The translations under genes and the position numbers were made by a program. Positions 144 through 5,761 of a stretch of DNA of 64,000 bases are shown here, one piece after another; positions within the stretch are counted from its first letter, which is position 1; every line of letters starts with the position of its first letter. Origin of the DNA: Bacteroidales bacterium (GTDB taxonomy: Bacteria > Bacteroidota > Bacteroidia > Bacteroidales > Muribaculaceae); the NCBI GenBank assembly GCA_014800845.1, contig JAAVFJ010000003.1, positions 1-64,000 of the forward strand. Reading direction: 5' to 3'. The notes beneath the pieces were generated by a model. That model was not told the DNA's origin and searched no databases. It worked only from the letters and a program-made list of their open reading frames with translations.

Positions 144-719
144 GTGAAGCCCCGTCCCCAATCCGCCATTAAGTCTCAAGCGTCAAAAATATTGGGGGCT
201 ATTCAGCGCGAAGATTTTTGCACTTCGAAATTGAATCTACGCCCGAAGGAAGCCGACGGCAAGCGCTTCGGCGACTGGGAGATGGACCTTGTCATCGGCA
301 AGGGGCAGAAAAGCGCCGTGCTGACTCTAGTGGAGAGGTCAACCAACATGTTTTTGCAGAAAAAGCTCTCGTCCAAGCAGCCCTCCCACGTGGCCAGGGC
401 CGCATGGCTTCTGCTGCTCCCCTACAAAGACCATGTCCTGACAATCACCACCGACAACGGGCTCGAGTTCAGGGAGCACGCATGGCTTGCCAAGAAAATC
501 GGAGCCACCGTCTATTGCGCCGACCTCTATTGCCCCGGACAAAAGGGAGCGGTGGAGAATGCAAACAAGCTTTTCCGCCAATATTTCCCGAAAGGCACCG
601 ACTTCCGACATGTAGAACAAAAGGAAATGGATGCCATCCAAAGGAAAATAAACAGTAGGCCAAGAGAAAAACTGAACTTCGATTCTCCAAAAAACGTGTT
701 CTTCAAGAATATTCTCTAA
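144..719 (+). mobile_element. IS30-family transposase remnant (catalytic C-terminal part; N-terminal HTH missing)
   Basis: RFGDWEMDLVIGKG, TTDNGLEF, YCPGQKGAVENANKLFRQYFPKGTD and NSRPREKLNFDSPKNVFF are IS30-type DDE motifs; no N-terminal domain in frame. Confidence 0.8.
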
Positions 720-822: not shown

Positions 823-1068
823 ATGACGGAAACTCATGCAATATACAATGGTCTTTTCTCAGCGGATGAATTTCTCGTAGATTGGAGAGATCTTGAATTT
901 TCCCATCCCGAAAGGAAAATCCGCCTTGCCACATCTTTCAGTGGTATAGGTGCTATTGAGCATGCGTTCCAACGCTTAGGGCTTAATTGTGAAATTGTTT
1001 TTGCGGGTGACGTAGATGATAAATGTAAAAAATCATATTTTGCCAATTATCATATTACAGAAGAATAA
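823..1068 (+). pseudogene. truncated C5-cytosine DNA methyltransferase N-terminal fragment
   Basis: IRLATSFSGIGAIEHAFQRLGLNCEIVFAGDVDDKCKKSYFANY matches motif I region of Dcm-like MTases; stops at 81 aa, no PCQ/ENV motifs follow. Confidence 0.65.
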
Positions 1069-1312
1069 TGGCACTAAAATTATGAGCACACCATCATTAG
1101 AGCCTAATCCTCTTTTTTCCACAACCTCTGTCTTCATAGGTAGTGGCTTCGATTTAAGGTTGGGTCTTCAATCGAAATATACTGATTTTTTAGACCTATA
1201 ATTATGGAGTTGCGGCATCGCCGCCGCGCTTCCGTAAAATGAGCCTAATGTCTCATCCGGAAGGCTTCAATAGCTAACTCATTTTGAACGACTTCGATCA
1301 AAATAACTAAAT

Positions 1313-2020
1313 ATGAACAAACGCAATATGGGAATTATACTTATAGTTGCAGGTGCAATACTTCTTGTGTGCGGGATTGTTATGGTTTCTACTAATCAAC
1401 ACAATACTGTCGAACCTGCAAATACTCAACCGCAGTTGGTAGTTGTGGAGAAGCATATACACGACACACTAACTTCGCCAACCACTGTTGAGAATGGTGT
1501 ATCTCGACCCAGCGAATCAGAGAATCCAACCGTCGACAAATCCAAAGAAAAAGGCGATGCTTTTGAAGATTTCGTTGTAAATCTTCTCGCCGACTGGAGA
1601 TTGAAACTTCTCGACCGCACTCAGGACGCTGTCTCGACTGCGGGCGTCGTAGCTGAGTCATGCAAAAATCCTGATTTACACGTTCAGCAGAAACGAGGTA
1701 AGAGTGAGATTGACTATTATCTTGAGTGTAAGTATCGCTCGCAGTGGAAAGACGGAGCTGTAATCTTTGAGGATTGGCAGCTTGACCGCTATCGTCAGTT
1801 CCAAAGAAGTAATCGTCGTAAGGTTATCTTTGCTCTCGGCGTAGGTGGTACACCGTCCGCTCCTGCTTCGTTCATGCTCGTTCCTCTTGATTCCGTCAAA
1901 GGTAACTCCATTAAGCAAATCAAAACTGAGTTTGCTGTCGAGCCTTCATCTTCTGCTCTCGTCGAATACATAAACAATTACTTCTCTAAAGTATTCTCTA
2001 AAGCTAAACATAAATCATAA
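1313..2020 (+). CDS. membrane-anchored PD-(D/E)XK nuclease-like protein
   Basis: N-terminal TM (IILIVAGAILLVCGIVMV), then GDAFEDFVVNLL...SEIDYYLECKYRS (D-x(n)-ExK pattern). Confidence 0.55.
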   Translation: MNKRNMGIILIVAGAILLVCGIVMVSTNQHNTVEPANTQPQLVVVEKHIHDTLTSPTTVENGVSRPSESENPTVDKSKEKGDAFEDFVVNLLADWRLKLLDRTQDAVSTAGVVAESCKNPDLHVQQKRGKSEIDYYLECKYRSQWKDGAVIFEDWQLDRYRQFQRSNRRKVIFALGVGGTPSAPASFMLVPLDSVKGNSIKQIKTEFAVEPSSSALVEYINNYFSKVFSKAKHKS

Positions 2021-2172
2021 TGACCGACTTCGACGATTTAGATACATACAGCGGAGACGCCGAACATGATATGTGGGTGGACTTCGATAATTACGAAAAC
2101 ACCGGCGGCCCTGATGCTTTCAACGAATCAGATATTAACAACTTTATTGACAACCTTAACGACTGGGACTAA
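2020..2172 (+). CDS. 50-aa highly acidic protein overlapping the upstream stop codon
   Basis: Read from sequence: MTDFDDLDTYSGDAEHDMWVDFDNYENTGGPDAFNESDINNFIDNLNDWD; ATG shares the last A of the upstream TAA; 13 D + 3 E, no K/R. Confidence 0.55.
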   Translation: MTDFDDLDTYSGDAEHDMWVDFDNYENTGGPDAFNESDINNFIDNLNDWD

Positions 2173-2792: not shown

Positions 2793-3161
2793 TTATTTCA
2801 CCTCGGGTTTTGGTGACAGGAGTATGATTTTGTTTATTTCGGGAACATTGCATGCCATCTGCCATCCGGACATGCCGGGATGCCACACTAAGGTGTTGTC
2901 GGTGATGCTGCCGTTGGCTATGAGTTTAGTCATTTCGGCAGTGTTCAGCGGGCCGGCCTGACGGTTGTCGACCACGGTGTACCATTGAGTGTTGGTCAAT
3001 GGAGCGCTGGCACACCCGCTCTGGCCTGTTGTGCCGGCGTTTACGCCTGCCACCTGCATGTTATTCATGGTGTAGTTCATGGTGTTAACCATTTGCTGCG
3101 CCAGTGACATTCCCATGCCGAATTCTATCAGACGGTCTATGGAGCTGAAATCTGTACTCAT
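2793..3161 (-). CDS. GYF_2 domain protein
   Basis: WYTVVDNRQAGPLNTAEMTKLIANGSITDNTLVWHPGMSGWQMACNVPEI. Confidence 0.75.
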   Translation of the reverse strand: MSTDFSSIDRLIEFGMGMSLAQQMVNTMNYTMNNMQVAGVNAGTTGQSGCASAPLTNTQWYTVVDNRQAGPLNTAEMTKLIANGSITDNTLVWHPGMSGWQMACNVPEINKIILLSPKPEVK

Positions 3162-3191
3162 TTCTGTGGGGTGTTAGAGTTAATAAACCTA

Positions 3192-4583
3192 TTAGGGCAT
3201 GGGGGGCGGAGGCACGGGGCAACCGGCAGGCATGGGGGGAGCGAAGATGCATGCGAGTTCGGGCACCTGTCCGGCGGGGAGCCACTGCGACATGCCCGGA
3301 GCCCATACGAATGTGTTGGCGTTCATCTGTCCCTGAGCTACCATCTGAGTGAGCGTGCTCACGGGGTAGGGGCCGTACTGCTGACCATTGATGGCTATGT
3401 GGTACTGGGTGTTGGTGGGTGCGCCGGGCATGGGCGGGGGTGTCTGCGCGTTGTTCTGCGCGGCCTGCTGTTGCCACTGATTGTTCATCTGCTGGCCCAT
3501 GTTGTTAACCATGCCGGCCATCTGGTTGCCGAGCGCGCCGCCTACGGCCATGCCTGTCATGAACTGTGCAGGGTTGATGCCGCTGGAGCCTGCGCCGCTG
3601 CCGAAGCTGCTGCTACCCATGCTCTTTGCGGCTGTCTGCATCACGTCGGCCTGACGGTTGAGGGCGTGCGCACCGATAAACTGCGTCTCGGTCTGGAGGC
3701 GCTGGGCACGCTGAGCTTCCTCGCGCTGGATGGCCAGAGTCTCGTCGAGATTGCGGGCGTTGATGTCCTGCATGTCGGCCAGATTCTTGACGTTGACAGC
3801 TGTCTGGGCAGCGATGGTGGCCTTCTGCTGGTCTGCCGTAACGGAGCGGAGTTCGCGGTAGCCCTCCGACTGCTTGTCCACATCGATGCGGGAGATGTCA
3901 AGGCGCTTGAGGCTCACGGCAAAGTCTTCGAGGTCCTCCTTAATGAGCGGCTTGATCATGTCGTTGATTTGGTCAAGGCGGCGCTCAATCTGGAGTACGG
4001 GGAGTTGGTGTTTCTCGGGAGCGTTTGACACTTCAGACTTGATGCGTCTTGTCACAGCGTCTTTGATCTGAGCCTTGAGCTCATCGAGAGTGAAGTTGAT
4101 GAGTCGATGAGTCTTGATGAAAGCCTGGGGATCGGCTATATTGAAGGTGAGGCTGCCGCCAACAGACATGGGCACAGCGAAGTCGAGGAATCGGGGGTCG
4201 AAGACATCAAAATAGGGTATGCCGAAGTTGAGCTTGATTACGCCGGCCAGGTTGATGTAGTAGATTTCAGCCTGGAAGGGTGACTCGCCACCGAAGGCCA
4301 TTCCCACGATAGATGAAAGCACGGGGAAGTTAGCGGTCTTGATGGTGTCATCGAAAGGACCGTAAATGAAGTCCTGCATCGTGCCGTCTTTCTGCTTGTA
4401 GACAAATACGGCGACTTCGCCATCTTTCACTCGCAGAGAGGAGCCATAGCGGATGCTGTTTTCACGGGAAGTGGAGTTAGCTTCCTGCCCTGCAGGACGC
4501 CATTTCCACACTAAATATTCTTGTTCATCGCAGCGGATAACGTTCATTAAACCGCCGCTTTTACCACGTCCAAAAAGTGCCAT
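3192..4583 (-). CDS. SPFH-domain (YdjI/virion-core-like) protein with C-terminal GYF_2 domain
   Basis: VIRCDEQEYLVWKW..., SPFH-like body, Gly/Gln/Met linker, C-terminal YHIAINGQQYGPYPVSTLTQMVAQGQMNANTFVWAPGMSQWLPAGQVPEL. Confidence 0.75.
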   Translation of the reverse strand: MALFGRGKSGGLMNVIRCDEQEYLVWKWRPAGQEANSTSRENSIRYGSSLRVKDGEVAVFVYKQKDGTMQDFIYGPFDDTIKTANFPVLSSIVGMAFGGESPFQAEIYYINLAGVIKLNFGIPYFDVFDPRFLDFAVPMSVGGSLTFNIADPQAFIKTHRLINFTLDELKAQIKDAVTRRIKSEVSNAPEKHQLPVLQIERRLDQINDMIKPLIKEDLEDFAVSLKRLDISRIDVDKQSEGYRELRSVTADQQKATIAAQTAVNVKNLADMQDINARNLDETLAIQREEAQRAQRLQTETQFIGAHALNRQADVMQTAAKSMGSSSFGSGAGSSGINPAQFMTGMAVGGALGNQMAGMVNNMGQQMNNQWQQQAAQNNAQTPPPMPGAPTNTQYHIAINGQQYGPYPVSTLTQMVAQGQMNANTFVWAPGMSQWLPAGQVPELACIFAPPMPAGCPVPPPPMP

Positions 4584-5761
4584 TATACTTTGATTTTATA
4601 TTTTGCAGCTAATTCGTTGATTTGATTAAGGAGTTTCTGATCACCGTCCAATACCACGCGGGCCTTAATAAGAATCTCCTTGGATTTCTTATAGTAAGCT
4701 TTCTGGTCAGGAGTAGCGAACAGGCCCGATTTAGACTTAGTTACGCAGGAGGTAAAGAGGTCGAAGATATCCAGCTTGTTGTTGGGTATCGGGAAACTCT
4801 CGATGATGGTTGCTCTTTTGGTATAAATGTTTTGACCAGACATTGCATCAGAAAATCCGGAAGTATGACTTTGCTTCTCATCAAGCTCGCGGAGCAGTTT
4901 TGCAAGACGCTCAGCCGAATTTGAGGTCTGAGCTTCGCCAGTCACCTCGTAGTCGCAACCACACTCGGGGCAGCAGGCGGCAAGCAGTTTTATGGGGGCA
5001 CCGCAGTGGGGGCATTTTTTAGGCTGATTGTGAGCGGCAGGAGCAGCAGCGGGAGTGGGGGGTACCTTAGCCTGAGCGTTGATTCGTTCCAATTCCTGCT
5101 TGTGCTGCAACTCTTTTTCGCGAGCTATAAGCGTCTGGCGCTGTTCATAGAGACGAGCCTCGAGAATCATCACAAATTCATCCATAGCCACACCCTCTTC
5201 CTGAGCGTTGCGAATGAGCACGTCGCGCTCCATGTCGGAGATTTCGCCGTCGGCTACTGCCGCATCAATCAGGCGGTTAAGGCGGGGGGATAGTACATTG
5301 TTGTCCTCATTGCCGGCAGCGGGGACGGCAGGGGTTGCGCCGGCAGGACCTGTCCAGGGCACAGGGGGTACAGGGGGCGCAGGAGCGTTGAGTTGAAACA
5401 GAGCGTTCACTTCGGGCACCTTATTGGCGGGGAGCCATTGCGACATACCGTTCATGAAGACCAGCGTAGCGGGAGTGAGGGAGCCTTTGCTGATCATATC
5501 GAGCAGAGTGGCGCGCTCGTAGGGACCGTAGCTCTGACCGTTAACGGCGATGCTAACACTCATCTGGGGCTCATGATTGGGCACCGGAGGAGCCGGGGGA
5601 GTGGAGAGCACACCCATGTTGTCGCGCTCTTTTACTTTCGGTTTTCTATTTTTGGCTTTATCCAGTGCAAAGGATGCGATATCGCCCAGATCCGGCATTT
5701 CACCATTGGCTATGCTTGTTGCTTTGTCAGCTAAATTTTTCAATTTATTGAAAAGTGCCAT
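4583..5761 (-). CDS. GYF_2 + TerB-like + zinc-ribbon protein
   Basis: IAVNGQSYGPYERATLLDMISKGSLTPATLVFMNGMSQWLPANKVPEV; LIDAAVADGEISDMERDVLIRNA (TerB-like); CPHCGAPIKLLAACCPECG. Confidence 0.7.
   Translation of the reverse strand: MALFNKLKNLADKATSIANGEMPDLGDIASFALDKAKNRKPKVKERDNMGVLSTPPAPPVPNHEPQMSVSIAVNGQSYGPYERATLLDMISKGSLTPATLVFMNGMSQWLPANKVPEVNALFQLNAPAPPVPPVPWTGPAGATPAVPAAGNEDNNVLSPRLNRLIDAAVADGEISDMERDVLIRNAQEEGVAMDEFVMILEARLYEQRQTLIAREKELQHKQELERINAQAKVPPTPAAAPAAHNQPKKCPHCGAPIKLLAACCPECGCDYEVTGEAQTSNSAERLAKLLRELDEKQSHTSGFSDAMSGQNIYTKRATIIESFPIPNNKLDIFDLFTSCVTKSKSGLFATPDQKAYYKKSKEILIKARVVLDGDQKLLNQINELAAKYKIKV

Follow-up and report, generated by a model that had tools for sequence, protein, structure and literature searches.

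Near the start of the window, the 64,000-nucleotide (nt) stretch of Muribaculaceae DNA analyzed here, a gene for a 235-amino-acid (aa) PD-(D/E)XK protein (positions 1313 to 2020, plus strand) runs into a 50-aa open reading frame (ORF) whose product contains 16 Asp or Glu residues and no Lys or Arg (2020 to 2172, plus strand). As a sequence-only reading of this DNA had noted, the two frames overlap by 1 nt, with the ATG of the small ORF (2020 to 2022) taking the last A of the upstream TAA (2018 to 2020). That reading had proposed a nuclease coupled to a dedicated inhibitor or partner, and the question raised by the locus is whether the acidic protein belongs to this particular nuclease or has a broader role.

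The larger protein, which contains SEIDYYLECKYRS, was modeled by AlphaFold2 with a mean pLDDT of 76.9 (>90 in most core blocks) as an N-terminal helix that a disordered linker joins to a high-confidence core at residues 74 to 232. The helix lies at residues 3 to 28, where a transmembrane (TM) segment is predicted, in agreement with the N-terminal anchor described previously, and the secondary structure of the model includes the alpha-beta-beta-beta-alpha-beta core expected of the PD-(D/E)XK superfamily. When the model was compared with the PDB using Foldseek, archaeal Hjc Holliday-junction resolvases ranked at the top (E = 1.3e-5), followed by RecU and type II enzymes. Across 15 homologues, P120, E138, and K140 were invariant, D121 was nearly invariant, and E85 was kept in nearly all sequences covering that position, which makes E85, D121, and the E138-x-K140 pair candidate catalytic residues. 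By predicted fold and motif, the 235-aa protein is a PD-(D/E)XK protein and a putative nuclease, as the earlier reading had suspected. No curated family claims it (the best Pfam match was PDDEXK_15, E = 0.034), PADLOC matched neither it nor the acidic protein, and a PDB sequence search returned nothing informative for either. It shares the alpha-beta core and the E, D, and ExK positions with Hjc/RecU-type resolvases but differs from them in its N-terminal TM anchor, its low identity (14 to 20%), and its status as an accessory gene. The protein is most likely a membrane-tethered enzyme that would act against foreign DNA in a host whose survival would not depend on the acidic protein. Two distant homologues (L025, 4256 to 4948, and L026, 825 to 1493, both minus strand) lack the TM helix and carry a different N-terminal segment that appears TerB-like by eye only.

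The surroundings of the pair supported the defense-like accessory setting that had been suggested for it. The methyltransferase and IS30 debris mentioned in the sequence-only reading corresponds to the C-terminal remnant of an IS30-family transposase at 144 to 719 (plus strand; NF033563, E = 2.1e-48, model positions 117 to 266 of 267) and the N-terminal remnant of a C5 DNA methyltransferase at 823 to 1068 (plus strand; PF00145, E = 6.8e-5, model positions 7 to 43 of 324; TIGR00675, E = 1.5e-5). These are followed at ~1082 to 1201 (plus strand) by an AbiH-like N-terminal relic (MSTPSL...FLDL; PF14253, E = 1.6e-4, model positions 4 to 23 of 260) whose score of 22.3 bits is under the curated cut-off of 30.9. 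The relic ends 4 nt 5' of a 73-nt structured repeat, which we call REP (1206 to 1278, plus strand) and which the earlier reading had overlooked. Directly 3' of this element, positions 1275 to 1297 (plus strand) form a direct repeat with 2011 to 2033 that is 83% identical over 23 nt; this is a tentative relic of an acidic-ORF start, although a match this short could arise by chance. An empty-site comparison made through the gene next to the island showed that this gene is itself rare in relatives. Further along the window (2793 to 5761, minus strand), successive ORFs with repeated similar segments of the GQxYGPY...WLPAxxVPE type may be paralogues.

Relatives of the acidic ORF were present in 32 of 111 genomes at the genus level and in 83 of 397 Muribaculaceae genomes (17 of 30 genera), a sample made up mostly of metagenome-assembled genomes with short contigs, in which genes were called by a simple ORF script. 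Few relatives occurred outside the family and none were found in viral contigs; sequences from Paramuribaculum, Muribaculum caecicola, and Palleniella are among the named records. The family averages 33% acidic residues, and Lys and Arg are absent from 38 of 67 members. Among 44 distinct intact copies, dN/dS was ~0.13 to 0.24, third codon positions varied the most, and identity dropped to chance within ~10 nt beyond the start and stop codons. This codon pattern and the decay of the flanks rule out a non-coding DNA repeat, and by these sequence measures the acidic ORFs form a genuine family of protein genes under purifying selection. The most conserved residues (M1, Y10, V20, D21, N27, T28, F34, D40, I43, and a C-terminal NLNDWD, with L46 and W49 also among the conserved positions) include aromatic and hydrophobic columns and not merely acidic ones, as would be expected if the protein folds or binds a partner. 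AlphaFold2 gave two helices at low confidence (pLDDT, 69; pTM, 0.39), and a Foldseek search with this model found no PDB match. Copies are often decayed, and several islands hold two. The window's acidic ORF and that of a second locus with the same nuclease (L105, 883 to 1038) are 0.89 identical in the 5' half and 0.67 identical in the 3' half, which is suggestive of recombination inside the ORF in this pair but not in general. The window genome itself (G000) carries a second acidic ORF (L054, G000:C52, 6467 to 6619, minus strand) of the type that elsewhere comes after type III Res genes, with a further boundary element ~4.7 kb downstream.

If the small gene served this nuclease, it would be expected to keep its company, and the proposed pairing has some appeal. 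The two genes occur together in three genera (the window, L105 in G580, and L120/L175 in G667), they overlap by 1 nt in the window and L105 and by 4 nt in L120/L175, and the small protein is acidic and free of Lys and Arg. The nuclease gene of L120/L175 has an in-frame stop in its 5' part. Two close relatives have lost the intact acidic ORF: in G088, an acidic relic with early stops lies behind an intact nuclease frame, and in G072, a frameshifted relic lies behind a nuclease frame that is open up to the contig end that cuts it, so the nuclease persists despite a broken partner. The overlapping acidic ORF is also absent from nuclease homologues at ≤63% identity, a result that the sequence-only reading had itself named as one that would count against its proposal. 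The family, moreover, is far from confined to this gene. Standalone acidic copies lie within 50 nt of 18 unrelated families upstream and of 25 downstream, many of these being restriction or other nuclease genes. Because the acidic family has many unrelated neighbors, the nuclease persists beside broken acidic ORFs, and its distant homologues lack them, a dedicated pairing is unsupported: judged by its distribution, the acidic ORF accompanies this nuclease in a single lineage, and its product is most likely not a dedicated inhibitor of it. We accordingly regard a nuclease-immunity pair as very improbable.

The upstream neighbors, listed here with some wider gaps and broken copies taken in, include HsdR, type III Res, a ResIII/TnsA-like protein, several HNH proteins, GmrSD-HNH, YhcG/DUF1016, MvaI/BcnI, T5orf172, DUF4268, a type III-like methyltransferase, small unknowns, and the PD-(D/E)XK protein of the window, and those downstream include PIN, KAP, DUF3800, ApeA-HEPN, Exo_endo_phos, UvrD-like, and REase-ARP proteins. 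Gaps of ≤20 nt were seen for 23 of 45 same-strand upstream neighbors and 30 of 41 downstream neighbors. Some upstream neighbors are non-nucleases (a SIMPL-domain protein and a small HTH-like ORF), and since defense islands are nuclease-rich anyway, adjacency to nucleases is not specific. In a second branch of the family (subfamily B), 20 of 21 acidic ORFs lie 3' of a gene for an HU-family protein (including L061, L068, L160, L162, L163, L165, L203, L206, L210, and L211), either directly or past one swappable small gene encoding a 76-aa TM protein or a protein of 112, ~101, or 110 to 115 aa. Variants with a Cys/His-rich middle (L203, L210, and L211) or a zinc-ribbon-like addition (L195, L196, and L202) also occur, and in genus g219 (L195, L196, L198, L201, L202, and L205) the acidic module forms the N terminus of a protein that continues into a zinc-ribbon-like segment. 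Taken together, these gene neighborhoods show that Muribaculaceae accessory islands carry the acidic ORF, a small gene under selection, amid cargo genes that have no relation to one another, of which the window nuclease is just one.

The 73-nt element bears on how this cargo is arranged. It recurred in acidic-ORF loci of other genera in blastn and nhmmer searches, and the window copy scored 98 bits against a covariance model (R1). In 19 aligned copies, an outer stem and two hairpins were supported by 91% paired cells and 17 double changes, and none of 500 shuffles reached as good a covariation score. Rfam and tRNA scans gave no match. The element usually begins 0 to 11 nt past the stop codon of a same-strand gene, in several cases the next ORF begins 5 nt after its end, and in many acidic-ORF islands elements bound units of one to several genes. 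The order in G504, for example, is a 188-aa ORF, element, acidic and 211-aa ORFs, element, 126- and 149-aa ORFs, element, acidic and 95-aa ORFs, element; in G742, two elements enclose DUF4268, acidic, 439-aa, and 97-aa ORFs. By locus, the arrays hold four (L224), three (L231), or two (L166, L157, L178, and L230) elements, and in L234 a SacI-type restriction-modification pair lies inside a gene run closed by an element. Given that the order in L105 is nuclease, acidic ORF, REase-ARP, element, the window probably contains a unit of this kind in truncated form.

Terminal elements are followed, across genera, by a conserved and apparently non-coding tail of 400 to 900 nt (L234, 6455 to 6860; L049, 6800 to 7300; L239, L240, L241, L171, L044, L173, and L235). 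This tail had no Rfam or tRNA match; its opposite strand bears a motif resembling a Bacteroides-type promoter.

Within the family, 74 of 347 genomes carried the element, at 1 to 7 copies each, counts that are lower bounds owing to the search filters. In an order-wide sample of 197 genomes, only the window's own genome matched, and on these searches the element is restricted to the Muribaculaceae. No copies lay near subfamily B, the zinc-ribbon-fused copies, or the distant nuclease homologues. Three genomes from three genera (G608, G568, and G533) have in common a 330-aa gene with 95% identity that is preceded by an element; this gene, present in 14 of 149 genomes, is accessory too. The genes on the left side of the element differ among the three. 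Sequence similarity of G608 to the other two starts at that element, and similarity of G568 to G533 starts at the next element leftward. Over all element-bearing loci, 62 of 475 shared-region ends fell at an element, ~9 times the 6.8 expected by coverage, although some of the pairs depend on one another and the conserved non-coding tail after terminal elements accounts for many of these ends. From these boundaries we lean somewhat toward the view that gene cassettes are, or formerly were, exchanged at the element. Its position between stop and start codons and its covarying helices would also suit an RNA-level 3'-untranslated-region or leader structure acting in processing, termination, or regulation. 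Since wobble pairs show no strand bias (15 G-U versus 13 A-C), however, a DNA-level palindrome fits better than an RNA, and an RNA role also sits poorly with the clustering of shared-region ends at element edges and with the scarcity of the element outside these islands; we therefore consider such a role a less probable but serious alternative to a recombination site.

What the acidic protein does in these units is a separate matter. Of the nuclease-plus-partner idea, the dedicated pairing fell away, whereas its looser form, a protein that mimics DNA, was strengthened by the position of subfamily B behind an HU gene. The case for mimicry is built on the strong net negative charge, the lack of Lys and Arg, the small size, the DNA-acting neighbors, and the HU genes beside subfamily B, HU being bound by unrelated DNA mimics. 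By this analogy, the likeliest role for the acidic protein, if somewhat short of an even chance, is that of a DNA-mimic-type partner of the DNA-acting proteins encoded with it. The very many unrelated neighbors on either side, the duplicate and decayed copies, and the HU genes, whose product often assists recombination elsewhere, could instead mark the ORF as an autonomous cassette passenger, such as a counter-defense or recombination accessory, with no functional tie to its neighbors. This would not readily account for the tight stop/start coupling or for the retention of the same partner across species, as seen for a type III Res group and, in three genera, for the window nuclease, and we judge it rather unlikely. 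Another reading places the effect in cis. The 8-aa mgtQ ORF between mgtC and mgtB encodes an acidic nascent chain that destabilizes ribosomes and tunes the next gene (PMC8092293), and the acidic ORF likewise is small and lies between co-transcribed genes. Unlike mgtQ, it spans 50 aa with a conserved amino acid pattern and few acidic runs, the longest Asp/Glu run being 2 residues in 29 of 36 members, so ribosome-destabilizing stretches are missing; conservation of Y10, V20, N27-T28, F34, I43, L46, and W49 also suggests a folded or binding protein. A translational role of this kind thus seems hard to credit.

Under the reading that we prefer, the element would be a present or past boundary for cassette exchange, integron-like but without IntI or attC, and the acidic protein would be a general partner, produced in step with its neighbors through the stop/start overlap, that tempers or chaperones DNA-acting proteins by DNA-mimic-type binding. 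Its targets would be restriction and other nucleases in subfamily A and the neighboring HU in subfamily B. As a whole, this explanation is tentative, and we would stop short of calling it probable. More speculative still, and on balance doubtful, is that the Muribaculaceae own a cassette-exchange system without IntI/attC kinship that shuffles restriction and other defense genes at a branched 73-nt DNA element, and that the acidic protein is the accessory typical of this system, serving as a recombination co-factor or as a DNA-mimic safeguard against newly acquired cargo that acts on DNA. Should recombination take place at the element, a dominant gut family would shuffle its anti-phage genes by an undescribed route, beyond the range of classical integrons, and the acidic family would mark the cassettes involved. 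A DNA mimic common to these cassettes would explain the safe uptake of unrelated nucleases. In open-licence PMC papers, we found no match to a small acidic protein linked to restriction or to cassettes of integron type in Bacteroidales, and against that literature the element appears to be a previously undescribed kind of gene-shuffling site.

Among known systems, integron and CALIN arrays are the closest in anatomy. Like them, the islands are arrays of genes each followed directly by a short, palindromic structured site, with one- or few-gene units, accessory and defense cargo, and tight spacing. Unlike attC, a single hairpin, the 73-nt element folds into a branched structure. The end boxes of attC have the consensus RYYYAAC ... 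GTTRRRY, and neither box was present on either strand in any of the 19 copies, so a canonical attC site is rejected. IntI (TIGR02249) did not exceed the cut-off in any of 16 element-carrying genomes or in any of 14 controls, and CALINs lack IntI by definition. The resemblance of the islands to a cassette array is thus one of anatomy. For the acidic protein, the nearest counterparts are DMP12, DMP19, HI1450, Ocr, and ArdA, to which it has no sequence or fold match. The first three are acidic DNA mimics, unrelated to this family, that bind HU (PMC5722371). Like all five, the protein is small, very acidic, and encoded beside DNA-acting genes, with subfamily B beside HU itself; unlike them, its family is promiscuous and cassette-borne.
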